This document shows, one piece after another, positions 29,684-53,018 of a stretch of 64,000 nucleotides of DNA. Position 1 is the first letter of the stretch; the number at the start of each line of letters is the position of its first letter. The position numbers and the translations under genes were made by a program. Under the pieces are notes generated by a model, which ran no database searches, was not told the origin of the DNA, and saw nothing but the letters and a program-made list of their open reading frames with translations. The stretch is from Arthrobacter sp. CAU 1506 (GTDB lineage: Bacteria; Actinomycetota; Actinomycetes; Actinomycetales; Micrococcaceae), in contig NZ_SUKC01000010.1 in NCBI RefSeq assembly GCF_005047635.1, forward strand, positions 62,001 through 126,000. The letters are read 5' to 3'.

Positions 29684-30010
29684 TTAGACCTGGTCGTCCG
29701 GAACGTCGACTTCGATGGCGTCGAAGTCCTCCCCGGCCGTGAGCTGGCAGCCGAGCCGGCTGCGGGCCTCGTCCCGCGGGCCGGCGGTGCACTCGAGCAT
29801 CTCTCCTTCGTCGTCGCCGATGTCCGGCAGCCCGTCGAGGTACTCGGGCCGGACGTAGACGTGGCAGGTGGCGCACATGGCCTGGCCGCCGCATTCGCCG
29901 ACGATGCCGTCCACGCCGTTGGTGACCGCGGCCCGCATCAGTGACGTGCCGGGGTCCACGTCCAGGACGTCAACGTCGCCGTCGGAGTGGTGGAAGCTGA
30001 TCTTTGCCAT
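29684..30010 (-). CDS. [2Fe-2S] ferredoxin, putidaredoxin/adrenodoxin type
   Basis: The 108-residue protein has four cluster ligands at Cys40, Cys46, Cys49 and Cys88 in the C-x5-C-x2-C-xn-C pattern of vertebrate-type ferredoxins; an extra Cys74 is present, as in putidaredoxin. It shuttles electrons to P450s. It starts 12 bp after the P450 stop in the same direction, so it is the likely electron donor of that P450. No ferredoxin reductase is found in the window. The ATG has AGAAAGAA-type purines upstream. Confidence 0.93.
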
Positions 30011-30022
30011 GGTTCTTCTTTC

Positions 30023-31357
30023 CTAGTTCCAGGTAACGGGGAGGCTGGTGATGCCGCGGAACACCCAGCCATCCCAGGTTTCGGGCCGGCGGTTGTCGGT
30101 GCGCAGCCCCGGGAAACGTTGGTAGGCCAGCGGCACGGCGATCTGGCCGATGGAGGTCTTCGCGGCCCAGTGCCCGGCGCACAGATGCACGCCGCTGCCG
30201 AAGGCAAGATGGGCGGTCTTGGGTCGGAAGATGTTGAACTCGCCGGCCGTAGGTCCGAAATGGTTCACGTCCCGGTTGGCGGATCCCACGACGACGCCGA
30301 GGCCTGCACCCGCGGGCAAGGACACCCCGCCGAGCGTTGTCGCACGGGTGGTCTCCCGCGGATACATGCCGATGGGGGAGAGCCACCTGACGGTCTCGTC
30401 GAACACCGCCGGCCAAAGCGAATCATCGTTGAGCACTGTGTGGCGCTGTTCGGCATGCCGGCTCAGCGCCCACACGATGTTGGTGACCATGTGCTGCGGC
30501 TCGTTCATGCCGCCGGAGATGGTCAGCTTCACATTGGCGGCAACGTTGTCGAACGGCAGTCCGCTGTTGGCCAGCGCCGAGGTCATCGACGCGTTGGGAT
30601 GCTGCTGGTAGAACGGGATGAGTTCGTCGAGGATAGCATCCAGCTCGGCCCTCGACGCCGCACAGCGAGCCCAGATGGCCTGGTCGTCGAGCACGTTTCC
30701 GGCGCCGGCGATGAAGTCGTGCGACCAGCGGCGCATGTGCTCCACCGTGACGTCTTTCAGGCCCAGAAGGTCGATCAGGTTCTGCGAGGCGACCGGGGCG
30801 GCGTAATCGCGGTTGAGGTCCGCTTGGTCCGGGCCCTTTCCTTCGAGGACGTCGAGGTATGTCCGCGCGTTGCGTTCGAAGACCGGCGCCCAGGCTTCCT
30901 TGATGTTCTTGGGCCGCAGCACCGGGTTGATGGCAGCCCTGTCCGCTGCGTGCTCGGGGTCGTCCTTGCGCAACATGGGCTGGGCTCCAAGCGCCCGGTT
31001 CATGGTGGCGCCGCTGACGTTGGCGCTGAAGATCTCCTGGTCCAGTTCCACGGCGTGGCACCCGGCGTAACTGGTCACGAGGAACTTGTTGAGCGCCGGA
31101 ACCCAGGCGACCGGGGACTCGCTCCGCAGGCGCTCATACGTGGGGTAGGGGTCAACCATGAGCTCCGAGGGATTCACCCAGTCGGCCACTGGGGCCACGG
31201 GGGCCACGGGGTGGGCAGCCGGCGCAGATGCCGCAGCCGCCGCGGGCCGCGCCGTCGCGGTCTCGGTGCCGATGATGTCCGGCCGCGTCATAACGCCGGC
31301 GTTCTCTGAGTCTCCACCGAAGCCGTAGGGGCATTGGCCTTCGAGGGCGGCAGACAT
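30023..31357 (-). CDS. Cytochrome P450, CYP255/GcoA-like
   Basis: The 444-residue P450 has the K-helix ExxR at Glu321/Arg324 (DETVRW), the heme loop FGSGVHLCAGH with Cys393 as iron ligand, and an I-helix block SGGMNEPQHM at about 281-290. The acid-alcohol pair there is Asn285-Glu286 instead of Asp/Glu-Thr. The C-terminal stretch (WDGWVFRGITSLPVTWN) and NPxEVYERLR-like start recall GcoA, the aromatic O-demethylase P450; this comparison is from memory. An Ala/Pro-rich extension (about residues 36-58) precedes the core. AGGAGG lies six bases before the ATG at 31357. It is divergent from a LysR gene. Confidence 0.92.
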   Translation of the reverse strand: MSAALEGQCPYGFGGDSENAGVMTRPDIIGTETATARPAAAAASAPAAHPVAPVAPVADWVNPSELMVDPYPTYERLRSESPVAWVPALNKFLVTSYAGCHAVELDQEIFSANVSGATMNRALGAQPMLRKDDPEHAADRAAINPVLRPKNIKEAWAPVFERNARTYLDVLEGKGPDQADLNRDYAAPVASQNLIDLLGLKDVTVEHMRRWSHDFIAGAGNVLDDQAIWARCAASRAELDAILDELIPFYQQHPNASMTSALANSGLPFDNVAANVKLTISGGMNEPQHMVTNIVWALSRHAEQRHTVLNDDSLWPAVFDETVRWLSPIGMYPRETTRATTLGGVSLPAGAGLGVVVGSANRDVNHFGPTAGEFNIFRPKTAHLAFGSGVHLCAGHWAAKTSIGQIAVPLAYQRFPGLRTDNRRPETWDGWVFRGITSLPVTWN

Positions 31358-31429
31358 GTGTCCTCCTGGAATCGAACGAACAGTGAAGACCAGTGTGACC
31401 CCCGGACTTCTCCTAGTAAACTGCGGATA

Positions 31430-31448
31430 TTCGTACAACTTCCTCGAA
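31430..31448. promoter_or_regulatory. Candidate LysR-type operator (T-N11-A box)
   Basis: TTCG, eleven bases, then CGAA forms the classical LTTR dyad. It lies 13 bp before the lysR ATG and about 73 bp before the P450 start, in the 104-bp divergent intergenic region. A second dyad, AAAC-5-GTTT, lies at 31447-31459 next to the lysR start. The positions suit autoregulation and control of the P450 operon. Confidence 0.5.
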
Positions 31449-31461
31449 ACTGTAGGTTTAG

Positions 31462-32376
31462 ATGCCAAAGTTCACCCTGCGCCAACTGGAACTCTTCGCC
31501 GCGCTGCCAGACCATCCCACGCTGAGCTCTGCGGCGTCGGCACTGCACATCTCCGAATCGGCGCTCTCCCATGCACTGAACGAGCTGGAGGCAACGGTGG
31601 GAGAACAGCTGTGCGTCCGCCGGAAAGCACGTGGCATGTGGCTGACCCAGGCCGGCCAGTACCTGGCCGCCAGGGCACGGACCATCTTGAAGGAAACCGA
31701 CGGGCTGGTCAGCGAACTGGCCGGCGTCGGCGGGGTGCTGAGAGGGCCGGTGGCCCTGGGCTGCTACACCGGGCTGGCCAGCAACGTGCTGCCGTCGGTC
31801 CTGGAAGGCTTCGGCAAGCTGCATCCGGGCGTGGACATCAGCATTACGGTAGGCGATCACGGCGACCTGCTGCCCCGGCTGGAGACCGGCGCACTGGATG
31901 CGGCCATCGTCTACGACATTGGCATGCCGGCCGGCCTGCAGCGCCAGGCGATCTACCAAACGGAAGTGATGGCCATCCTGGCGGAATCACATCCGCTGGC
32001 CACCAAGCCGGAACTCGACCTCGCCGACCTGGCCCCCGAACCGCTGATCATGCTTGAGTCGGTCCCCAGTACCGGTTATACCCAGCTCATGTTCGCGGAA
32101 CGGGGGCTGACGCCAACGCTGGCAGCCCAAGTGCCGCAGATCGACCTGGTCCGAGCCCTCGTGGGCCGCGGCCTGGGATACAGCTTGCTGATGTCCCGCC
32201 CCAACCAGATCCCGGTCACTACCGAAGGCCTCCCCATCGTTTCCCGGCCGCTGCTGCCGCGGGCAGGCGGAACCTCGGTGGTGGCAGTCTGGCCCGACGG
32301 TATTGCCCTGAGCGCGCGGGCGCAGGCGGTCATGGACTATGCCTCTGAGGTGCTGGAAGGCATCGTCACCGCTTGA
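31462..32376 (+). CDS. LysR-family transcriptional regulator
   Basis: The 304-residue protein has an N-terminal winged HTH (LRQLELFAALPDHPTLSSAA, then LHISESALSHALNELE) and a long linker helix. A periplasmic-binding-like effector domain follows from about residue 90 (GPVALGCYTG, then a VYDIG region). It is divergent from the P450-ferredoxin operon, the usual position of its activator, and probably senses an aromatic or related substrate of that P450. The effector is not known. Confidence 0.92.
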   Translation: MPKFTLRQLELFAALPDHPTLSSAASALHISESALSHALNELEATVGEQLCVRRKARGMWLTQAGQYLAARARTILKETDGLVSELAGVGGVLRGPVALGCYTGLASNVLPSVLEGFGKLHPGVDISITVGDHGDLLPRLETGALDAAIVYDIGMPAGLQRQAIYQTEVMAILAESHPLATKPELDLADLAPEPLIMLESVPSTGYTQLMFAERGLTPTLAAQVPQIDLVRALVGRGLGYSLLMSRPNQIPVTTEGLPIVSRPLLPRAGGTSVVAVWPDGIALSARAQAVMDYASEVLEGIVTA

Positions 32377-35755: not shown

Positions 35756-37366
35756 TCAGCCGGCGACCACCTGCGCGTCAATGAGCACCGGGCCGGTGGC
35801 TTGCAGTGCCTTCTGGTAGGCCGCCTCGAACTCCTCGCGGGTGTTGGTCCGCTCGGCGGGCACCCCGTAGCCCTCGGCGATCGAGACGAAGTCGATGCCG
35901 CCAAGCTTCAGCCCGGGCACGTCCGGCACGCCCATCCGCTGGGCGAAGCCGGCCAGGGCGCCGTAGCCGGAGTTGTTGACGATGACGAACACCGTGCGGG
36001 TCTGCCGCTGTGCCGCCGTGTAGAGCGCGGTGATGCCATAGTTTGCGGAGCCGTCGCCAACGGTCGCCACGATGGTTTTCGCCGGATCGCCGAGGGCCAT
36101 GCCGACCGCCACCGGCAGGCCGAAGCCCAGGCCGCCGGACGCCGGGAAGTTGTACATGCCCGGGCGGTCGATGGCGATGCGCTCGAGGTAGTCCAGGTCC
36201 AGCGTGGTGGTCTCGTTGACGTAGGCGACCGTGTCATTGACATGGGCGTTCAGTACTTCGAGGATTTCGGTGCCGGTCATGCCGTCCGGCGAGGTCTTGG
36301 CCGCCGGCAGTTCCCGGCTGCCGGGCTCGCCGCGCCGCTGGCCCCGGTCCGTGACTCCACGGGCCAGCGCCTTCGCCGCTCCTGCCACATCGGCGACGAC
36401 GGACCGGCCGAACGGCGCGCGGGTCGCTTCCCGGGGGTCCTGCGTGAGTTGAATGACCTGGGTTCCGGACTCGAGGTAGTTGCTCGGTTCCCAGCGGTGA
36501 TACCGGAAAACGGCGGCGCCGAGGACCAAGACCACGTCGTGGCCGGCGAGGCGGTCACGCACCGACTGGATGCCCGGGACGAGGACGCCTTCGAAGTTCG
36601 GATGGGTCGTGGGGAACGGGCCGCGTGATGGCGAGGGAGCGACGAAGACGGAGGCACCGGTTTTCTCGGCCAGCGCCACGACGGCGTCGAACACGCTGGG
36701 ATCCTCGACGGCGGCGGCGTCCACTTGGGGGCCGACGACGAGCGCGAGCTTCCGCGCACCGTCGACGGCCGCGATGAGTTCCCGCGCGAGGGCATCGGTG
36801 AGGCCGCCGGCGCTGACCACCGACCGCTCGGTGAGCAGGGCGTCGTCGTCGAGCGCGGGCTCCGCCCAGTCATCAAGCGGAACCGAGACATAGACCGGCC
36901 CGCGCGGCTGGGCGGACGTCTCGAACACCGCCTGCGAGAGCGTGCGCGGCACGTCCGCGGCGGCCAGCGGCTCGTGCGAGTATTTGACCAGCGGCGCCGT
37001 CAGGATCGAGGCGTCGGCGCTAGCCAGCATCGTCTCCTGCCCCACGGTGCGGCGGACCTGCTGCCCGGCCAGGATGACCATGGGGATATGGCCGTAGTGG
37101 GCGTTGGTCAGCGCACCCATGGCGTTGCCCGAACCGGAGGCCGCGTGCAGATTCACCAGCGCGGGGTTGCCGGTGGCGCGCGCGTAACCCTCGGCCATCC
37201 CCACCACTACCTGCTCATGCAGGCCGAGGACGAAGTCGAATTCCTCGGTCAGCCCGGCCAGGAAGGGGAGCTCGTTGGACCCGGGGTTGCCGAAGATAGT
37301 GGTCATGCCGTGCGCACGGAACACGTCCAGAGTCGTCTCCAGTACCGTCTTCTTTATGCTCGCCAC
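35756..37366 (-). CDS. mdlC: Benzoylformate decarboxylase (ThDP enzyme)
   Basis: This thiamine-diphosphate enzyme converts benzoylformate to benzaldehyde and CO2. The 536 residues align by eye throughout with Pseudomonas putida BFDC. The catalytic set is present: Ser30 in FGNPGSNEL (S26), Glu51 in LHEQVVV (E47), His74 in VNLHAASG (H70), and the His of VFRYHRWEP near residue 285 (H281). The ThDP motif is GDGSANYGI...VNNSGYG. GTG start with GGAAGG upstream. It is 34 bp downstream of an LDH/MDH-family dehydrogenase that could supply its 2-oxo acid. This enzyme family also handles other 2-oxo acids, so substrate is predicted, not proven. Confidence 0.87.
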   Translation of the reverse strand: MASIKKTVLETTLDVFRAHGMTTIFGNPGSNELPFLAGLTEEFDFVLGLHEQVVVGMAEGYARATGNPALVNLHAASGSGNAMGALTNAHYGHIPMVILAGQQVRRTVGQETMLASADASILTAPLVKYSHEPLAAADVPRTLSQAVFETSAQPRGPVYVSVPLDDWAEPALDDDALLTERSVVSAGGLTDALARELIAAVDGARKLALVVGPQVDAAAVEDPSVFDAVVALAEKTGASVFVAPSPSRGPFPTTHPNFEGVLVPGIQSVRDRLAGHDVVLVLGAAVFRYHRWEPSNYLESGTQVIQLTQDPREATRAPFGRSVVADVAGAAKALARGVTDRGQRRGEPGSRELPAAKTSPDGMTGTEILEVLNAHVNDTVAYVNETTTLDLDYLERIAIDRPGMYNFPASGGLGFGLPVAVGMALGDPAKTIVATVGDGSANYGITALYTAAQRQTRTVFVIVNNSGYGALAGFAQRMGVPDVPGLKLGGIDFVSIAEGYGVPAERTNTREEFEAAYQKALQATGPVLIDAQVVAG

Positions 37367-37400
37367 TGGTCTGCCTTCCTAGTATTTTCGTTGCTTGCGT

Positions 37401-38429
37401 TCACTGCGTTGGTTGGCCTGGCCGGCCCGGCTCGTGTGAAATCTCCTGGGACAGGTTGAGTGCGGCTGCCTCCCGCACCGACGCTGCAGCTGTCACCAGG
37501 GCAGCCTGCTCCTCGGGGGAGCCCTGCCAGTCGGCCACCTTGGCCTTGCCGGCGCTCATGGTTACCGGCAAAGCGATGAAAGCCTCGTCCAGCCCTCGGG
37601 CTCCCGCGGTCCACACGGCGGCGGGAAAGGTTTCGCCGCGGGCCATCATGGTGATCATGCGGACCACACCGAGCGGGGTGGTCCAGCCTGAACTCCGGCC
37701 TGGTTCCAAGGCAGACCAACGGTGGAACCAGCCATCAATGTCCTGGCGGATGTTTTCCTGCTGGGAAGCGGTCAGGGTCACCGGCGCGCCGTCGACCGTC
37801 ACGGCACTGAAGCACGGCACCTGCCCCTTGCCGTGCTCGCCCAGGACCTGGGCGCTGACCCGATGCGGTTCGACTCCAAGTTCCTTGGCGATGGCGGCCT
37901 GGAAGCGGACCGAGTCGTTGATGCTGTAGCCCAGGATCCGGTCCGGGCTGATGTCGGTGATCCGGTGCAGGCACTCGGCGAGGACATCGACCGGGTTGGA
38001 CAGCAGCAGGACGACACCGTTATGGCCCGAGAGCTTCTCAATGGTCGGGGCCAGCAGCCTGAGCAACCGCAGATTCGCGGCGAGGAAGTCGCGCCGGTCC
38101 CCGCCGGGCACCTCCGGGGCCGACGCGGCCACGATGACCAGGTCAACTTCTTCCCAGGAATCGGCCGCCGCTGGATCAACAACATCCAGCCGGGGCGCCC
38201 TGACGCCAGCCAGGATCTGGGCCTCGGAAATGTCGATGGCGTGGGCGCGCGCGACGTTCTCTTTCACATCGACCAGATGGATCGTTGTGCCGATGCCGGC
38301 CAGTGCCAGTTGGTACACCACGCCCGAGCCAATGAGTCCGGCAGCGCCGATCACGGCTATGCTGCGGGGCCACGCCTGACTTTGATCCGTGCTGTGCCTG
38401 GCACTTGGCGGATTGGTTTCAGCTTTCAC
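37401..38429 (-). CDS. LDH/MDH-family 2-hydroxyacid dehydrogenase with unusual specificity residue
   Basis: The 342-residue protein has the Rossmann motif GAAGLIG at residues 28-34 and the catalytic set Arg112 (GGDRRD), Asp172, Arg175 and His199 (LGEHGKG). At the position that is Gln in LDH and Arg in MDH (from the PG-x-x-R loop) it has Glu106 (APEVPGGDR). This suggests neither lactate nor malate is the natural substrate. With mdlC 34 bp downstream, an aromatic or bulky 2-hydroxy acid such as mandelate is plausible; that is inference. A 20-residue extension precedes the fold. GTG with GGAAGAAGAG upstream. Confidence 0.85.
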   Translation of the reverse strand: MKAETNPPSARHSTDQSQAWPRSIAVIGAAGLIGSGVVYQLALAGIGTTIHLVDVKENVARAHAIDISEAQILAGVRAPRLDVVDPAAADSWEEVDLVIVAASAPEVPGGDRRDFLAANLRLLRLLAPTIEKLSGHNGVVLLLSNPVDVLAECLHRITDISPDRILGYSINDSVRFQAAIAKELGVEPHRVSAQVLGEHGKGQVPCFSAVTVDGAPVTLTASQQENIRQDIDGWFHRWSALEPGRSSGWTTPLGVVRMITMMARGETFPAAVWTAGARGLDEAFIALPVTMSAGKAKVADWQGSPEEQAALVTAAASVREAAALNLSQEISHEPGRPGQPTQ

Positions 38430-41443: not shown

Positions 41444-41956
41444 TCAGGCCGCGGCGCTTTCACGGAAGCCGCCCAGCCGGCCGCCGTGGAAGACCAAGGG
41501 GTCGCCGTCGTCGGCCACCATCTCCAGCACTCTGGCGATGACCAGCACGTGGTCACCGCCGTCCAGTTCCTGCTGGATGGTGCAGTCGATCCAGCCAACG
41601 GAACCGGCAATGTGCGGGGTGCCGTAGGCGGACTGGTTCCATTCGATGGCCGCGAACTTGTCCTCGGATTTGCCCGCGAGTGCCTTGCAGACCGGCTGCT
41701 GGCCGTCGGCGAGCAGGTTCACGCTGAAGCTGGCGGAGCTGCGGATTTTCGGCCAACTGGTGGACGTGCGGGCGATGCTGAAGGTGACCAGCGCCGGGTT
41801 GAGCGAAAGGGCCTGGAAGGTTCCCACGATCAAGCCGCAGGGACGGCCGCTGGCCGGATCGGTGGCGCAGATCGCCGCGACGCCGGTGGGGAAGTGGCGC
41901 ATGACGGCGCGGTACTGATCGGGCTGGATTGCCGGGGTGACGGCCGCGAGGTTCAT
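41444..41956 (-). CDS. Flavin reductase (HpaC-like)
   Basis: The 170-residue protein has the flavin reductase fold: FPTGVAAICATDP near residue 22, GLIVGTFQALSLNPALVTFS (in parts) for the FMN site, SFSVNLLADGQ, and a late ARVLEMVADDGDPLVFHGG. It should give reduced FMN to a two-component monooxygenase. It is the last gene of a three-gene operon with an amine oxidase and an NtaA-type FMNH2-dependent monooxygenase, which supports that role. GAAGC-type purines precede the ATG. Confidence 0.88.
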   Translation of the reverse strand: MNLAAVTPAIQPDQYRAVMRHFPTGVAAICATDPASGRPCGLIVGTFQALSLNPALVTFSIARTSTSWPKIRSSASFSVNLLADGQQPVCKALAGKSEDKFAAIEWNQSAYGTPHIAGSVGWIDCTIQQELDGGDHVLVIARVLEMVADDGDPLVFHGGRLGGFRESAAA

Positions 41957-41965
41957 GGCGCTTCC

Positions 41966-43288
41966 TTAAGTCGTGGGGGCAAGTTCGGCGGTGGCTGCGG
42001 GGATGCTGGCCCGGACGTTCCGCGCCGCGCGCAGGCCGCTTTCGATCGCGCCGTCAATGAAGCCGGCCCAAATGTTGGCGTAGTCGCTGCTGGCGAAGTG
42101 CAGCACGCCGGCATTTTCTTGCTGCGCCGCCAGGTACCGAGTCAGCTGGCCCGGCTGCTGGATCAGCCAGGTTTCCTGTGAGTACGGGTCCGCCATCCAG
42201 TCGTGTCCGGTGCACTCCAGCACTTCAAGGTCATTGCGCCAGACCTGCAGGGCGCTGCGCACGGCCTGGACGTCGTTGACGTCAAGCCGCGTGGCATCGG
42301 CGCCGAACGCGACCAACACAGCGTCGGTCTCGCTGACGAATTCGGTGCGCACCACCGCGAGCGGGTGGTGCTGCGAGGAGTAGGCGAAGAACGGCTTGAT
42401 CGGGCCGCGCACCCGGATCCAGGCTTTGACACCCCGCGACGCGGTTTTCTCGATGCTGGGCCGGAGCTTGCCCTCCGACAGGCCGGGTGTGATGTCGAGC
42501 TGGTGAAGGATGTTCTGCGGGACCGTCAGCACCACGCGGGACGCCGAAATGGTGCGGCCGGCACCGTACGTGACTAGGGCGGACCCGCCGTCGTGCTCGA
42601 TCGAGGCGACGGCAGAGCCCAACCGGATGTCGGCGCCGGAGTCGCGGGCAATGGCGTCCGCCAGGCTGCGGGTGCCGCCGGTCAGCCGGAAGATGGCCGA
42701 CGCCTCGTGCATCAGGTGCCAGGAACCGGCCGTCGCAGCCGTCCAGCGCAGCGCGTTGGCGTAGGCGCACCGGTCCAGTGGGGCGTTGAAGTGGCCCACC
42801 CAGGCCGCTTCGTTGGCATTGCGCTCGTCCTCGGACAAGTCCAGCTGGTCCAGCTTCTCCTGCAGATTGAACTGGTCGACGTCCTCGATGCCGGGCGCCG
42901 CCAGTGGCCTGTCCGGGCGGGGGATCCACTTCATCGTGTCTTCGAGCAGGCGGGTCATGCCAGGGTCGATGAGTTGCATGAAGTCCTCGAGGTTGCCGCG
43001 GCGCACGTGGCTGCCAGCCAACCAGTACGTCTCCTCGGAACGGGGGCCGCGGGTCACTTCCAGGCCGTAGCGGGTGACCTCCGCCCAGGAATGCGGCTGC
43101 GTCCAGTGCAGCCAGGTGCCGCCCATCTCCAGGTCGCGGCCGAGCCGGTGGTCGGTCCAGGTACGTCCGCCGATCCGGTCCCGCGCTTCCAGGACAACGA
43201 CGTCCAAGCCTTGGCGCGTCAGCTCGCGGGCCGTCACCAAACCGGCAAATCCGGCGCCGACAACGACAACATCGGTTGTTTCAGTCAT
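41966..43288 (-). CDS. Flavin-containing monoamine oxidase
   Basis: The 440-residue protein has the FAD motif GAGFAGLVTARELTRQGLDVVVLEARDRIGGRTW at residues about 11-44 (given in parts: GAGFAGL and EARDRIGGRT), then GGTWLHWTQPH. A C-terminal FAD contact, WAGFIDGAIESG, lies near residue 410. These enzymes oxidise primary or secondary amines to aldehydes with H2O2. A covalent-Cys motif is not evident. It lies between the flavin reductase (9 bp away) and the LLM monooxygenase (46 bp), so the operon probably handles an amine-bearing substrate. AGGAGA precedes the ATG. Confidence 0.88.
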   Translation of the reverse strand: MTETTDVVVVGAGFAGLVTARELTRQGLDVVVLEARDRIGGRTWTDHRLGRDLEMGGTWLHWTQPHSWAEVTRYGLEVTRGPRSEETYWLAGSHVRRGNLEDFMQLIDPGMTRLLEDTMKWIPRPDRPLAAPGIEDVDQFNLQEKLDQLDLSEDERNANEAAWVGHFNAPLDRCAYANALRWTAATAGSWHLMHEASAIFRLTGGTRSLADAIARDSGADIRLGSAVASIEHDGGSALVTYGAGRTISASRVVLTVPQNILHQLDITPGLSEGKLRPSIEKTASRGVKAWIRVRGPIKPFFAYSSQHHPLAVVRTEFVSETDAVLVAFGADATRLDVNDVQAVRSALQVWRNDLEVLECTGHDWMADPYSQETWLIQQPGQLTRYLAAQQENAGVLHFASSDYANIWAGFIDGAIESGLRAARNVRASIPAATAELAPTT

Positions 43289-43334
43289 CCGTGGTTCTCC
43301 TGCTTCGTTCTGTGGGTGTCTTGCCTGAACTGGG

Positions 43335-44738
43335 TTAGGAAGCGATGGCGACGGCGGTGCCCGCGCGATGGCCGGTGGCCGGATGTCCCGGAAGGGTGTA
43401 ATGATGCCCGGGGCCGTACAGCTTCTCGCGGAGCGTCAACTGCGCGTCGGTGGGCTGCGGGGCTTCCGCCGCGAGCCCTTGGCGGCGCAGTTCGGGCAGG
43501 GCGTGCTCGATGAAGTGCTTCCAACTGTCGGGCTTGGTGGCGTAGCTGAGGTTGATGCCGTCCACGTCCGCCTCGTCGCGCCAGCGCCTGATGTCGTCCG
43601 CGACAGTGCTGGGCGAGCCCACAATGGTGCTTCCGGTGCCGCCAATCCCGAGGAACTCGGCGACGGCCCGCGGCGTCCACACCCGGTCCGGATCGGCCTT
43701 GGAGAACATGTCCACGATCGATTGCACGCCGCGGGTTTTGACGTGCTGCAGCGGCGCGTCAAGATCTGCCTCGGACAGGTCGATGCCCGTCCAGCCGGCA
43801 AACCGTGCCAGGGCACCTGCGAGGCTGACCTGGGCGCGGGCCTGGTCATGCAGCGCGGACGCCTCTTCATCGGTAGGCGCCACGATGACCGTCAGCAGGA
43901 CCACCACCTTGATGTCGTAGGGCCCGCGGCCGTTTTCGACGGCGGCCTGCCGGATCTTCTCCACGCTGCGGCGGGCTTGTTCCACCGAGACCGCGTTGAT
44001 GAACACGGCCTCGGCGTGGCGTCCGGCGAAGGCCATCCCACGCGGAGAGGATCCGGCCTGGAACAGCACGGGAGTTCTTTGCGGGGACGGCTCGCACAGA
44101 TGGATGCCGGGAACGGAGAAGTACTTGCCGCTGTGCTTGATGGGGTGCACGCGGGCCGGATCGACGAAGGTGGCTCCCTGCTGGTCACGGACGACGGCGC
44201 CGGGCTCCCACGACTGCTCCCACAGTTTGTAGAGGACCTCCATGTATTCCTCGGCCAGCTCATAGCGTTCGTCGTGCTCAAGCTGCTGCGACAAGCCCAC
44301 GTTCCGTGCCGCGGACTCCGAATACGAGGTGACGATATTCCATCCCACGCGTCCGCCGGTCAGGTGGTCCAGTGTGCTGAAGCGCCGCGCCATTAAGTAC
44401 GGCGGCTCGTAGGTCAACGAGGACGTGACACCGAAGGTGAGTCTCTCGGTCACCGCCGCCATCCCGCTGACCAGCAGCAGCGGGTCGTTGATCGGGAACT
44501 GCGCGGCATCGCGCAACGCAGCATCCGGACGGCCTTCGTACACATCGTGGTAGCCGATGGTGTCGGCCAAGAAGATCCCGTCGAACCCGGCGGCTTCGAG
44601 CGTCCGGGCCAGGTCCTTCCAGTACGCCAGGTCCTTGTAGCGGTGGCCCTGGTCCGCCTCGTTGCGCCACGACCCGGCGGTGAGATGGGCCGGGGAGTTG
44701 GTATCGAAGGCGAAGAGGCTCAGGGGTTGGTCTTTCAT
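43335..44738 (-). CDS. FMNH2-dependent monooxygenase, NtaA/SnaA/DszA family
   Basis: The 467-residue protein has the family pattern LFAFDTNSPAHLTAGSWR at the start, GFDGIFLADTIGYHDVYEG near residue 45 (in parts), LTFGVTSSLTYEPPYLMARR, WNIVTSY near residue 137 and a QAGSSPRGMAFAGRHAEAVF FMN-phosphate region near residue 225. Relatives oxidise nitrilotriacetate, dibenzothiophene sulfone and similar substrates, using FMNH2 from a separate reductase, which here is in the same operon. ATG 44738 has AAGGAAG 11 bases upstream. It is the first gene of the operon and lies divergent from iclR across a strong palindromic operator. Confidence 0.9.
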   Translation of the reverse strand: MKDQPLSLFAFDTNSPAHLTAGSWRNEADQGHRYKDLAYWKDLARTLEAAGFDGIFLADTIGYHDVYEGRPDAALRDAAQFPINDPLLLVSGMAAVTERLTFGVTSSLTYEPPYLMARRFSTLDHLTGGRVGWNIVTSYSESAARNVGLSQQLEHDERYELAEEYMEVLYKLWEQSWEPGAVVRDQQGATFVDPARVHPIKHSGKYFSVPGIHLCEPSPQRTPVLFQAGSSPRGMAFAGRHAEAVFINAVSVEQARRSVEKIRQAAVENGRGPYDIKVVVLLTVIVAPTDEEASALHDQARAQVSLAGALARFAGWTGIDLSEADLDAPLQHVKTRGVQSIVDMFSKADPDRVWTPRAVAEFLGIGGTGSTIVGSPSTVADDIRRWRDEADVDGINLSYATKPDSWKHFIEHALPELRRQGLAAEAPQPTDAQLTLREKLYGPGHHYTLPGHPATGHRAGTAVAIAS

Positions 44739-44782
44739 AGCAGCGACACTTCCTTGCACCATTGAAAAGAGGAGGGCTGTAT

Positions 44783-44807
44783 GTTCAGTATCTGAACGTG
44801 GCGTTCA
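44783..44807. promoter_or_regulatory. Overlapping palindromes, candidate IclR operator
   Basis: GTTCAGTATCTGAAC (44783-44797) and TGAACGTGGCGTTCA (44793-44807) are each perfect 6-3-6 inverted repeats and share the central TGAAC, giving three GTTCA-type half-sites in 25 bp. The site lies between the monooxygenase operon (start 45 bp away) and the iclR start (97 bp away). IclR-type regulators bind such short palindromes, often as pairs of dimers. Confidence 0.7.
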
Positions 44808-44903
44808 ATTTATCCCTGCGTGCGAGTAGTGTCAATGGTTCGGGACGTAAGGTGGTACTGCCCGCCACAACACGGCCCCTACGGCCGGGAGGAACCCAAG
44901 ACC

Positions 44904-45692
44904 ATGACGGAGACAGAACCGCTCGCGGAGGGCGCTGACGCGCCGGACCTCGCCAACAAGTCCGTGGTCAAAGCCATGGCGCTGCTGCGCGAGCTGGGTC
45001 GCCACCCGCAGGGAATCACCGTCACCGAGCTGGCCCAGCACGTGGGCCTGAGCCGCCCCACGGCGTTCCGGCTGCTGTTGAGCATGGAGCAGGTCGGGTT
45101 CGTCGACCGGACCGACAACAACTACACGCTTGGCTGGGAAGTGGCACGACTCGGGCGTCTGGCCGACCCGACGGCGGGCGTGGGTGCGAAGGTCCAGCCA
45201 ATCCTTGAGCGGTTCGCCCAGGAGATCAACGAGACCGCAACGTTTGCACTGAACAAGAGCGCCACGGAGTACGACCTCATCGCCGAGGCGTCAGCGTCGA
45301 GGATGCTCAGCGTTTCGCAACTGTATGTCCACCGCCAATATCCGTTGTACGCGAGTGCGACCGGCAAAATCCTGCTGGCCGACCTGGACGACGACAAGAT
45401 CGTCCAACTGCTGCCCGAAAAGCTCACCCCGATCACTCGGCGGACGATCACCGACCGCGGCGTCCTGCTGCAGGAGATCCACGAAGTCCGGCGGAACGGG
45501 TACTCCGTCCTGGACAACGAACTCGAGGAAGGCCTCTTTGCCGTGGCCGTCGCCGTCCGGGATGCCGACGGATTCCTCCTCGGCGGACTCACGGCGACGG
45601 GGCCGGACCAGCGGTTGAAATCCGGCCGCCTGCCCAGCATCGTGGAGAACCTGCACGTCACGGCCGAGAAAATCGCCAAGGCCCTCGGCTAG
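44904..45692 (+). CDS. IclR-family transcriptional regulator
   Basis: The 262-residue protein has an N-terminal winged HTH (GITVTELAQHVGLSRPTAFR in about residues 42-65), then GFVDRTDNNYTLGWEV. The C-terminal GAF-like effector domain has the family blocks YASATGKILLA and RRNGYSVLDNELEEG, near residues 150 and 200. It is divergent from the flavin monooxygenase operon and probably represses or activates it through the palindromes at 44783-44807. The ATG at 44904 has GGAGG 12 bases upstream; an upstream in-frame ATG has no family sequence. Confidence 0.92.
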   Translation: MTETEPLAEGADAPDLANKSVVKAMALLRELGRHPQGITVTELAQHVGLSRPTAFRLLLSMEQVGFVDRTDNNYTLGWEVARLGRLADPTAGVGAKVQPILERFAQEINETATFALNKSATEYDLIAEASASRMLSVSQLYVHRQYPLYASATGKILLADLDDDKIVQLLPEKLTPITRRTITDRGVLLQEIHEVRRNGYSVLDNELEEGLFAVAVAVRDADGFLLGGLTATGPDQRLKSGRLPSIVENLHVTAEKIAKALG

Positions 45693-45880: not shown

Positions 45881-47587
45881 ATGACCGCAGGGGAACCGAT
45901 CGACTACATCGTCGTCAACGGCGTGATCTACACCAGCGATCCCCAGCAGGAATGGGCCGAGGCGTTCGCGGTCTCCGCCGGGAAAATCGCGGCGGTCGGA
46001 ACCGAGGATGCCGTCCGCCGTTTGGCAACGGACGAAACGCCGACGATCGATCTCGCCGGACGTTTCGCCATGCCGGGCCTGGTGGACGTCCATGCCCATC
46101 TGGGACTGGGTGGCCGCCAGCAAGCGTTCGAGTTGCCGATCCTGCCCACCGATTCGGTTCCCGAGATCCTGGCCAAGGTGCGGGCATGGACGGAGCGGCT
46201 CCAGCCCGGCAAATGGGTCGTCGGAGGCATTGTGGGCTCCACGGTGATCGACGACCTCACCACCGACGATCTGGAAGCCCTGGACGACGCCGCCCAAGGC
46301 CACCCGGTGATGCTCCGCGACGATTCGATGCATAATCGCTGGGTCAACTCCCGGGCGCTGGACATCATGGGAGTAACGGCCGATTCGCCCGATCCCGACG
46401 GCGGGTCCTATGTGCGGAATGCCGACGGGGAACTCACCGGCGTCCTGTACGAGCTGGCCGGAAATCTGGCCGAGTCGGCTGTGGCGGAAGCGGTTGAAGA
46501 TCCGGCCGCGCACAATGCCACCGCCATCAAGACCGCTGTACACACCCTGAACTCCTTCGGCATCACCGCCGTCCAGGAGGCAGCCACCATGGACTACGCC
46601 CTGGAGACCCTGCACCGCCTTGACGAGCAGCGGCAACTCACCGCCCATGTGGTCGCGTCCATGCCGTCCCGCACCTTCATTGAACCCGGCATCACCGGGG
46701 CGGAGCTGTACGACGTCGGTGCCCGCCACCGGAGCGCCCATGTGCGGCCGGACTTCTCCAAGTATGTGTTGGACGGGGTGCCGATGACCCGGACCAGCGC
46801 CATGCTGCATCCGTACATCTGCAGCCACCACAGCCACGACCGCGACTTCACCGGGGAGCCGCTGTGGGGGCTCGACGAGCTGGTGGAATCGCTGGAGGAT
46901 CTGGTGGACCGGGGGCTGCACGCGAAGCTGCATGCCACCGGCGATGCTGCGGTCCGCCGGGTCCTCGACGCTGTGGAGCGGGTCCGTGCAAGCCGCGGGG
47001 AGGGGCCGATCTTCCAGATCGCCCACGTGGAATACATCGACGAAGCCGACCTGCAGCGCTTCGCCGAGCTCGGTGTTGTCCCCGACGCGTCGCCCTACCT
47101 CTGGTTCCCCTCGGTGATCCAGGAAAGCATTGCCAAGCAGATCCCAGCGGAGACCTTCGATAAGTCGTGGCCGCTGCGGGACCTCTTCGAGTCCGGTGCA
47201 CTGGTGAGCGGCGGCTCCGACTGGCCCTGCGCGGCGCCCACGCCCGACCCCTGGACCGGATTGGCGACCATGGTGACCCGGCGAAATCCGGATTCAACGG
47301 TTCAGGGAGAACTCAACGCCGGCCAGTCCATCGGGATCCAGCAAGCCGTGGCAGCCTTCACCCGCAACCCGGCCGCCGCCATGGGGCTCGGAGAGGTGAC
47401 AGGAACTCTCCGCCCCGGGCTGTCCGCGGATTTCATCGTGCTGGACCGCAACGTTCTCACCGAGAACCCGGCCGCAATCCACCAGACCACGGTGCTTCAG
47501 ACGTACTTTGAGGGCCGGCTGGTCTACGAGGCAGCCGGCGAGGATGCGGCAGGTGTGGCCGCCGGTCTGGCCGGAAGCGCCAGGTAA
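45881..47587 (+). CDS. Amidohydrolase (YtcJ/amidohydrolase-3 type)
   Basis: The 568-residue metal-dependent amidohydrolase has HAHLGL at residues 69-74 (His ligands), Lys in FSKYVLDG near residue 290 (possible carboxylated lysine), HATGD near residue 345, HVEYID near residue 382, and GSDWP near residue 446 with the conserved Asp. It could deaminate or hydrolyse an imine, imide or amide. It follows iclR by 188 bp on the same strand, so it may be a later gene of the same regulon. AAGGAGA precedes the ATG. No substrate is evident. Confidence 0.88.
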   Translation: MTAGEPIDYIVVNGVIYTSDPQQEWAEAFAVSAGKIAAVGTEDAVRRLATDETPTIDLAGRFAMPGLVDVHAHLGLGGRQQAFELPILPTDSVPEILAKVRAWTERLQPGKWVVGGIVGSTVIDDLTTDDLEALDDAAQGHPVMLRDDSMHNRWVNSRALDIMGVTADSPDPDGGSYVRNADGELTGVLYELAGNLAESAVAEAVEDPAAHNATAIKTAVHTLNSFGITAVQEAATMDYALETLHRLDEQRQLTAHVVASMPSRTFIEPGITGAELYDVGARHRSAHVRPDFSKYVLDGVPMTRTSAMLHPYICSHHSHDRDFTGEPLWGLDELVESLEDLVDRGLHAKLHATGDAAVRRVLDAVERVRASRGEGPIFQIAHVEYIDEADLQRFAELGVVPDASPYLWFPSVIQESIAKQIPAETFDKSWPLRDLFESGALVSGGSDWPCAAPTPDPWTGLATMVTRRNPDSTVQGELNAGQSIGIQQAVAAFTRNPAAAMGLGEVTGTLRPGLSADFIVLDRNVLTENPAAIHQTTVLQTYFEGRLVYEAAGEDAAGVAAGLAGSAR

Positions 47588-47606
47588 GCAGAGCGGACCT
47601 GCTGCA

Positions 47607-48095
47607 CTAGCCGGCGCTGCCTCCTCGCTTCAGAAAGGCGGCGAGATTCGCCAGGGAGGAGGCCAGCCCGGCTACGTGGTCGGTGGATGAAATGCCCGGC
47701 GGAACATTCGTGGCGGCTACGCTCACCAGTGTTCCTTCCGATTGCGCCTGCAGCTCCCACGTCATGGTCATCGTCCCGGCGAAGCCGGCCTCGTCGGACA
47801 TGAACCTGATCAGCTGCACGAGTTTCTCGCCCGGGACCAGGTCAACGAACTCGACGTTGGTGACGTCCGTGGTGTCGGAGGTCTTTCCGAGGCCGGAGGC
47901 GTCCAGATAGGTCAGGACCATGCGGAAACCGCCGCCCACCCCCGGAGTGAAGTGCTCCACGCGGGCCACCATGCCCTCCGGCGGCAACCATTTTTCCAGG
48001 CTGTCGGGGTCGGTCAGGGCACTGTAGATCGTCGACGGCGGCGCGCTGATCAACAGGCTTCCCCGATCGACCCTGTGGGCGTTCTCGTCCATCAT
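47607..48095 (-). CDS. SRPBCC (AHSA1/START-like) domain protein
   Basis: The 162-residue protein opens with ISAPPSTIYSALTDPDSLEKWLPP, the AHSA1 signature, and continues through GGGFRMVLTYLDASGLGKTSDT (in parts). A helix-grip fold gives a hydrophobic ligand pocket; roles range from polyketide cyclisation to co-chaperone work. ATG 48095 (or the next ATG, three bases on) has AGAGGCAGG upstream. It converges with the amidohydrolase and is divergent from xdhA. Confidence 0.85.
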   Translation of the reverse strand: MMDENAHRVDRGSLLISAPPSTIYSALTDPDSLEKWLPPEGMVARVEHFTPGVGGGFRMVLTYLDASGLGKTSDTTDVTNVEFVDLVPGEKLVQLIRFMSDEAGFAGTMTMTWELQAQSEGTLVSVAATNVPPGISSTDHVAGLASSLANLAAFLKRGGSAG

Positions 48096-48343
48096 CCTGC
48101 CTCTGCGCGTCGGCGGTCTTGGGCCTTGACTGGCTTCGAGGGTAGCAGGCGCGCCGCTTTCGGTGGGGCGCGAGCCCGCCAAACGGCGGAAGCCGGGGCT
48201 CGCCGTCGTGCTCTGAAATGAGTGTTTCCTGGCAGCCATTCCCATGCCGGTCGTGACGTTTTATCATGGGCAGTTACGGTGACCAGCCGGCCGGGGAGTG
48301 CTGAGATCCAGCCCGTGTTCCGACGGCGGAGGAGCGTGAGGCA

Positions 48344-49797
48344 ATGGAGCCGCATGAGGTGAAGGTCAACGGCGTGCCACGGGTGTTGGCCGCCGGACCG
48401 CAGGTCAGCCTGCTTGACTGGCTGCGCGGCCAAGGGCTGACCGGGGCCAAGGAAGGCTGCGCCGAAGGGGAATGCGGCGCGTGCGCGGTGCTGGTGGCGC
48501 GCGAGGACGGGCCGGACCGCACCCGCTGGACGGCCGTCAACTCCTGCCTGCCGGCGGCGCTGGCCTTCGACGGCGGGGAAGTGGTCACGTCCGAAGGGCT
48601 GGGACGCGCTCCGGGGGCCTGCAGCGCCGAGGAGCTCCACCCGGTCCAGCGCGAAATGGCGGACCGCGGCGGCTCCCAGTGCGGCTACTGCACGCCCGGC
48701 TTTGTCTGTGCCATGGCGGCCGAGTACTACAGGCCCGAACGGCAGCCCGCCGCGGAAGAGCGGGAGCCTTGCCACGGCCCCAACGGGTTTGACCTGCACG
48801 CGCTGAGCGGAAACCTGTGCCGCTGCACCGGCTACCGGCCCATCCGCGACGCGGCCTACGCCCTCGGCGCGCCGGCCGAGGCGGATCCGCTGGCCGCCCG
48901 ACGTGAGGCATCGGCTCCTGCCGCCAAACGGACCCGGTTCGTCTCCAGCGGGACCGAATTCATCCGTCCCGAAACGCTGCAGGAGCTGTTGAACCGGCTG
49001 GAGCAGGATCCCGACGCCGTCCTGGTGGCCGGGGCCACCGACGTCGGGGTTGAACGCAACCTGCGGCACAGCCGCCCGCGGTTAGTGTTGGCCATTGATC
49101 GGCTGGAGGAGCTGCGCGGCCTGGACATCGCGACCGAGTACGTGGAGATCGGCGCCGCCCTCGCGCTGAGCGAAGTCGAGCAGGGGCTGGGCGGACGGGT
49201 GCCGCTGTTGAGCGAGCTCTTCCCGCAGTTCGCTTCCCGGCTGATCCGGAACAGCGCCACGCTCGGCGGCAATCTCGGCACCGGGTCTCCGATCGGCGAC
49301 GCCGCGCCGGTCCTGCTGGCCCTCGACGCCACCCTGCTGCTCACTTCACCGCGAGGTGAGAGGTCAGTGGCGCTCGCCGATTACTTCACCGGCTACCGCC
49401 AGACCGCGCGCGAACCGGACGAGATCATCCGCGCCGTTCGGGTGCCGCTGCCGCTGGCTCCGATCACGGCGTTCCACAAGGTGGCCAAGCGGAGATTCGA
49501 CGATATCTCCTCGGTGGCCGTCGCGTTCGCGGCCAGGTTCGACGGCGCCGTCGTCGCCGATGTGCGGATTGGGCTGGGCGGCATCGCCGCGACGCCGCTG
49601 CGGGCCAAGGCCACCGAGGATGCGCTGGCCGGCAGGGAACTGACCCGGGAGAGCGCGGCGGAGGCAGCCGCTGTCCTGGCATCCGAGGGCACCCCAATGG
49701 ACGACCACCGGGCCAGCGCCCGCTACCGCGCCGCAATGCTGGAGCAGGCGATGCTGCGGTTCTATGCCGACAACGCGCCGGAACTGGAGGTGATCCG

Positions 49798-49801
<4 letters not shown>
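48344..49801 (+). CDS. xdhA: Xanthine dehydrogenase, iron-sulfur/FAD subunit
   Basis: The 485-residue subunit has the plant-type [2Fe-2S] cluster (GCAEGECGAC at residues 38-47, then NSCLPA), a second cluster (SQCGYCTPGF and LCRCTGYRPI), and an FAD domain from about residue 200 (VLVAGATDVGVE, then NSATLGGNLGTGSPIGD near 310-330). The chain passes electrons from the molybdenum site to NAD. It overlaps xdhB by four bases (GTGA). Substrate is probably hypoxanthine or xanthine; the family also includes other N-heterocycle hydroxylases. Confidence 0.92.
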
Positions 49802-52175
<2,374 letters not shown>

Positions 52176-52179
<4 letters not shown>

Positions 52180-53018
52180 TGGACTGGCTGGCTGCGGTGC
52201 AGAACCTGCGCGACGACGGACGACCCGGTGTGCTTGCCACCGTGGTCTCCGTGCGGGGTCACGCGCCCCGCGAGGCCGGCGCCAAGATGGTCATCGCCGC
52301 AGACGCTCTCTGGGACAGCATCGGCGGCGGGAACCTTGAGGCCGAAGTGATCGACCGGGCCCGCCGCATGATCGCCGATGCGGCCGAAGCGCCCGAAACC
52401 CTGACGTTTGCGCTCAACGAGCACGCGGCGAACCAGCATGGACGCCAGTGCTGCGGCGGCGAAGTGCGGGTCCTGCTGGAGCCGCTGCGCCATGATCCGG
52501 TGGTGGCAATTTTCGGCGTCGGGCACGTGGGGTTCGAGCTGGCCCGGATCCTCTCCCGGCTGCGCCTGCGCCTGCACCTGACCGACAGCCGGGCCGGGCA
52601 GCTCGATCCGCTCCGGCTGGCCGACGTGACTGCCGGCAGCGCCACCGTCACGGTCCACCACACCCCGGCACCGGAGACTGTGCTGCAGGCCTTGCCGGCC
52701 GGCTCGCACGTTTACATCATGACCCACGACCACGCCGAGGACTTCCTGCTGTGCGACGCCGCACTGCGCCGGGGCGGCCTGGATGTGGGCCTGATCGGCT
52801 CGACGGCAAAATGGGCCCGGTTCCGGCAGCGGCTCCGCGCGGAAGGGCATGACGACGTCGACTCCATCCGCTGCCCCATCGGCTTGCCCGGCACCGGCGG
52901 AAAGGCGCCCGCCGCCATCGCCGTCGGGGTCGCCGCGGAACTGCTCGGCAGGCTGGGCAGCGCAGTGCCGGAAGCTTCCGGGCCGGCGCCCCGCGCGGTT
53001 TCGAAGCTTCCGGAATAG
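52176..53018 (+). CDS. xdhC: Molybdenum cofactor insertion/sulfuration protein XdhC
   Basis: The 280-residue protein supplies sulfurated molybdenum cofactor to the XdhB subunit. It has VVSVRGHAPREAGAKM near residue 25, GGGNLE near 50 and the Rossmann-like FGVGHVGFELARIL near 112, the usual XdhC order. It also has the Cys-rich NQHGRQCCGGEVR block near residue 90. ATG 52176 overlaps the xdhB stop by four bases. It faces a convergent D-2-hydroxyacid dehydrogenase. Confidence 0.92.

Follow-up and report, generated by a model that had tools for sequence, protein, structure and literature searches.

An LDH/MDH-superfamily dehydrogenase gene paired with benzoylformate decarboxylase in Arthrobacter sp. 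CAU 1506 and other actinobacteria: a possible NAD-linked route for mandelate-type acids

In the window that we analysed, a 64,000-nucleotide stretch of the Arthrobacter sp. CAU 1506 genome whose numbering is used throughout, an NAD-type 2-hydroxy acid dehydrogenase gene of the lactate/malate dehydrogenase (LDH/MDH) superfamily (37401..38429, minus strand, 342 aa) is followed 34 bp downstream, on the same strand, by a gene for ThDP-dependent benzoylformate decarboxylase (BFDC; 35756..37366, minus strand, 536 aa). The gap (37367..37400, minus strand) holds a plausible ribosome-binding site, AGGAAGG, ahead of the GTG start of the decarboxylase gene, and we consider it rather likely that the two genes are co-transcribed as a two-gene operon. 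Comparison with other genomes supports the view that the coupling of BFDC to an LDH-fold 2-hydroxy acid dehydrogenase of NAD type recurs in at least two actinobacterial lineages. We put at about 60% the probability that the pair serves a 2-hydroxy-2-arylacetate, for example mandelate or a ring-hydroxylated mandelate, making the dehydrogenase a proposed (S)-mandelate-type enzyme.

The decarboxylase by itself is ordinary. It scores 612.9 bits against the curated NCBIfam equivalog NF005485 (cut-off 493), and its best solved relatives in the PDB are BFDCs (E about 1e-152 to 1e-145). The catalytic residues of the Pseudomonas putida enzyme, S26, E47, H70 and H281, are all kept (S30, E51, H74 and H290 in the window protein), as are the pocket residues T377, F397, A460, L461 and F464. 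The coordinates and the alignment confirm a sequence-only reading of this DNA, which had placed the dehydrogenase gene 34 bp upstream of an enzyme with all four BFDC catalytic residues.

The dehydrogenase gene, present in a single copy in the genome, begins with a GTG just downstream of a plausible ribosome-binding site (GGAAGAAG), and this start matches that of the A. luteolus homologue. Ldh_1_N and Ldh_1_C (PF00056/PF02866) are the only Pfam matches of the protein, which has the Rossmann NAD domain and the alpha/beta C-terminal domain of the superfamily; the ApbA/ApbA_C domains of the ketopantoate-reductase type are absent from it in Pfam. An AlphaFold model based on a 13-sequence alignment (mean pLDDT 85.4, pTM 0.85, residues 240-247 poor) found its best PDB fold matches among LDHs and MDHs (TM about 0.7-0.8), and LDH and MDH were also the best matches in the PDB sequence search. 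Against curated models the best scores were 137-149 bits, where the LDH and MDH models require about 280-300: 136.9 bits for the L-LDH model (cut-off 303.55) and 149 bits for the MDH model (cut-off 283).

The specificity position, 102 in dogfish LDH numbering, is Arg in MDH and Gln in LDH (PMC4109310). In the window protein it is neither; it is occupied by Glu106 (codon GAG, 38112..38114, minus strand), which pairs with Arg102 of halophilic MDH in an ungapped alignment. The residues Arg109, Asp168, Arg171 and His195 (Arg112, Asp172, Arg175 and His199 in the window protein) are invariant in the alignment of 18 homologues. Both the retention of these four residues and the Glu in place of Gln or Arg had been noted earlier and hold, with numbering from the GTG start. 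Asp54, where the second strand ends, is likewise invariant in all 18 homologues, as in NAD-linked enzymes; in the LDH/MDH fold this residue selects NAD.

The Glu had also been taken as a hallmark of the system, and here the sequence-only reading fails. Position 106 is Glu in all eight Micrococcaceae sequences, Leu in a divergent genus, which has the clearest mandelonitrile-type clusters, and Ala in a third family. Because of the Leu and Ala in other clades, Glu106 is ruled out as a pathway marker; it is a trait of the Micrococcaceae clade and does not define the pathway. Co-conservation of Glu106 and Arg237 in the eight Micrococcaceae sequences suggests a possible salt bridge across the pocket, in a model whose residues 240-247 are of low confidence. 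It is also not obvious how a phenyl ring would fit into a pocket with a Glu, which counts against an aryl substrate such as mandelate.

The dehydrogenase is rare in Micrococcaceae, where it was found in 8/395 genomes (the named species are Arthrobacter luteolus, A. silvisoli, A. mobilis, A. mangrovi and Nesterenkonia haasae). At a greater distance (31-39% by BLAST), homologues are present in 7/247 genomes of one large-genome actinobacterial genus and in 3/22 genomes of a third family. All of these homologues, including the divergent ones, branch apart from an Arthrobacter LDH and halophilic MDHs, in a tree whose deeper joins are on long branches and unsure; the nearest relative of the window protein is that of A. 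luteolus (support 97/92). Scanning genome contigs with the single protein as query retrieved no relatives, and an alignment-based scan retrieved only six true ones, together with halophilic malate dehydrogenases caught via the Rossmann pattern; the plasmids searched held no relatives. BFDC genes (E <= 1e-120) occur in 33/395 genomes of the family, as compared to 8/395 for the dehydrogenase, and many genomes with BFDC have no dehydrogenase.

Where both genes are present, they are found together. In the four Micrococcaceae genomes that carry both, they lie within 10 kb of each other (4/4; about 0.005 per genome under a simple null), and in the divergent genus the dehydrogenase adjoins a BFDC-family gene in 7/7 genomes, so the pairing is more than chance. 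The clusters around the pair vary in order, with BFDC-ALDH-amidase-dehydrogenase-LysR-nitrilase-MFS in one genome (G028) and dehydrogenase-MFS-amidase-nitrilase-ALDH-BFDC-LysR, within about 10 kb, in A. silvisoli; A. mangrovi groups the dehydrogenase, MFS, ALDH and BFDC genes with a ketopantoate-reductase-family dehydrogenase. Five genomes of the divergent genus have the order amidase-nitrilase-BFDC-dehydrogenase-ALDH, and the other two have dehydrogenase-BFDC with a nitrilase; at the four loci where the gap between BFDC and dehydrogenase genes was measured, it is 17-22 bp. The BFDC-family protein of this genus is 35% identical to the window BFDC and, at 465.6 bits, falls just under the cut-off of 493. 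The cluster nitrilase resembles NitA (6zby, E 2.8e-97), and the amidase resembles indoleacetamide hydrolase at scores (418 and 490 bits) below the cut-off. The nitrilase, amidase and ALDH genes that in several cases stand beside the pair fit mandelate-type substrates.

In four dehydrogenase-bearing genomes, those of A. luteolus, A. mobilis, N. haasae and a MAG, no close BFDC was found; the MAG contig stops 0.7 kb past the dehydrogenase gene. In A. luteolus the place of BFDC is taken by an ABC transporter and an enolase-superfamily gene, the latter (L009:8429-9502) 72 bp upstream of the dehydrogenase. The best curated model for the enolase-superfamily gene is talarate/galactarate dehydratase, below cut-off. 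We rejected mandelate racemase as its identity: alignment to 2og9 shows Lys-Ile-Arg for the Lys-x-Lys motif and Asn for the Asp of the Asp-His pair. At L015:9541-13148, 1.1 kb separates the Nesterenkonia dehydrogenase from an acetolactate-synthase-like ThDP enzyme with flanking GcvT-like genes; the two are perhaps another dehydrogenase-decarboxylase pair. In the third family (L142-L144), the dehydrogenases have an aromatic-ring FAD monooxygenase on one side and, on the other, an enolase-superfamily gene with mandelate racemase as its best PDB match. A gentisate-dioxygenase-like cupin is also present, and this is possibly an undescribed aromatic pathway.

BFDC genes in the family also have other partners. 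At six loci in several Micrococcaceae (L136, L137, L148, L149, L139 and L013), ketopantoate-reductase-family dehydrogenases that are 43-61% alike adjoin BFDC and ALDH genes, and these are candidate D-mandelate dehydrogenases. In the window's own genus, two BFDC orthologues (87-88%; L132:7052-8866 and L134:11180-12994) have no LDH-like gene and adjoin a fumarate-reductase-like FAD protein.

For the clusters of the relatives, the simplest reading is a route from nitrile or amide through hydroxy acid, oxo acid and aldehyde to acid with mandelonitrile as substrate, that is, mandelonitrile/mandelamide to mandelate, benzoylformate, benzaldehyde and benzoate. The LDH-fold enzyme would oxidise the (S)-2-hydroxy acid with NAD+, a stereochemistry that we infer because the LDH superfamily is L-specific, and in a direction suggested by the partner genes. 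In this reaction His199/Asp172 would accept the proton, Arg175 would bind the carboxylate, Arg112 would close with the loop and Asp54 would pick NAD. BFDC would then decarboxylate the aryl-2-oxo acid, and the aromatic aldehyde so formed would be oxidised by a general aldehyde dehydrogenase. The pair would in this way perform the job of P. putida MdlB and MdlC with an unrelated NAD-linked dehydrogenase.

The coupling of an LDH-fold enzyme to BFDC, as first proposed for this locus, stands as recurrent in at least two lineages, whereas in the genome of the window nothing else of the pathway is clustered at the locus, and a search for relatives of the cluster nitrilase gave none. In the same genome, the best match to the ketopantoate-reductase enzyme reaches 29% and is no orthologue, there are 29 ALDH matches (best 41%) with none at the locus, BenA does not appear above cut-off, and one PobA-like protein matches strongly but stays under its cut-off. 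These results suggest that a hydroxymandelate is no less likely than mandelate to be the substrate here.

Elsewhere in the window, an FMN-dependent monooxygenase (NtaA/DmoA family), an FAD amine oxidase and a flavin reductase form a tight row with gaps of 46 and 9 bp (41444-45692). An IclR-type regulator of the PcaR/PobR kind runs divergently from this row, which lies beside the pair and is likely a catabolic operon. The amine oxidase (41966-43288) lies about 3.5 kb upstream of the pair, separated from it by genes of other function with gaps of 175-289 bp; it led us to consider an octopamine/synephrine route, for which we found no direct literature support. On the plus strand, 45881-53018 encodes an amidohydrolase and then molybdopterin dehydrogenase-type genes (FAD/2Fe-2S and MoCo subunits), and at 29684-31468 a small ferredoxin-like ORF lies beside a cytochrome P450, with a divergent LysR regulator.

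Other explanations of the pair have to be weighed against an aryl substrate. The dehydrogenase might act on a non-aryl (aliphatic or polar) 2-hydroxy acid, with BFDC as a broad 2-oxo acid decarboxylase, so that the pair would make or break an aliphatic aldehyde. The polar Glu106, the talarate/galactarate dehydratase-like gene (below cut-off) beside the nearest homologue in A. luteolus, and two homologues that lie near acetolactate-synthase/sulfoacetaldehyde-type TPP enzymes rather than BFDC all point in this direction. We nevertheless consider it unlikely, as the BFDC passes its family cut-off with pocket residues A460, L461, F464 and F397 kept, and in the sister and outgroup clades the gene belongs to nitrilase-amidase-BFDC-ALDH clusters. 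In vivo the enzyme could also run as a reductase, turning the aryl-2-oxo acid into the 2-hydroxy acid in a side branch that competes with BFDC. The equilibrium of LDH-type reactions does favour the hydroxy acid; in the relatives, however, the nitrilase and amidase of a cyanohydrin route would supply hydroxy acid, and its oxidation would be pulled by BFDC and ALDH, which makes this direction quite improbable.

That the protein is an ordinary lactate or malate dehydrogenase, beside BFDC by accident, we regard as very improbable. Its fold and catalytic residues are the same, and its closest PDB relatives by sequence and fold are LDH and MDH; yet its scores reach only about half of the LDH and MDH cut-offs and position 102 carries neither Gln nor Arg, and on these two grounds we rejected this identity. 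The linkage to BFDC, conserved in two lineages, and the branch separate from an Arthrobacter LDH and halophilic MDHs argue against it as well.

Oxidation and decarboxylation of an aryl 2-hydroxy acid by the pair would share with P. putida mdlABCDE both the sequence of 2-hydroxy acid to 2-oxo acid to aldehyde and a BFDC of the same family. The differences lie in MdlB, which is FMN-dependent and of another fold, whereas the window has the NAD-type LDH/MDH-superfamily protein in its place and no MdlB gene adjacent to its BFDC gene; moreover, no racemase was seen at the window locus. The statement in the sequence-only reading that known mandelate pathways are FMN-linked was too broad, since the ketopantoate-reductase family includes NAD-linked D-mandelate dehydrogenases, known from Enterococcus (Wada et al. 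2008, cited in PMC12350541). These share NAD-linked mandelate oxidation or reduction with our proposal and have the homologues beside BFDC in several Micrococcaceae clusters described above, but they belong to another protein family and have the opposite expected stereospecificity. The L-2-hydroxyisocaproate dehydrogenase (HicDH) clade resembles the window protein in having neither Gln nor Arg at 102 with the other catalytic residues kept, and its one characterised member uses another 2-hydroxy acid (PMC4109310); that clade has insertions between 102 and 109, where the window protein aligns gapless to MDH and LDH.

Nitrilase genes adjoining mandelate-degrading genes, as in the clusters of the relatives, have been described for P. 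fluorescens EBC191, where the nitrilase is thought to serve plant mandelonitrile (cited in PMC8955678), and for a nitrilase-mandelate pathway cluster of Bradyrhizobium (cited in PMC3599355); in contrast to these systems, the window locus has no nitrilase. We found no report in the open literature of an LDH-superfamily dehydrogenase in a nitrilase-mandelate cluster, and no LDH-family mandelate dehydrogenase in the open full-text literature, a scope that leaves out most subscription papers. What would be new, given the substrate that we propose, is the use of a non-orthologous, NAD-type dehydrogenase of LDH fold in the mandelate/benzoylformate route; the route itself is known.

A broader hypothesis, to which we give somewhat less than an even chance, is that this dehydrogenase group is an undescribed LDH/MDH subfamily of NAD-dependent (S)-mandelate (or hydroxymandelate) dehydrogenases, independent of both the FMN-dependent MdlB and the D-specific ketopantoate-reductase type, that serves cyanohydrin/mandelate catabolism in several actinobacterial lineages, and that in its Micrococcaceae branch Glu102 replaced Gln/Arg as the specificity residue. 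If true, this would add another substrate change at position 102 to a textbook superfamily and a third unrelated solution for mandelate oxidation. It would also provide mandelate dehydrogenases that are NAD-coupled and probably (S)-selective, of use in work with chiral 2-hydroxy acids, and for actinobacteria that metabolise plant cyanohydrins or mandelate it would correct the annotation 'malate/lactate dehydrogenase'.
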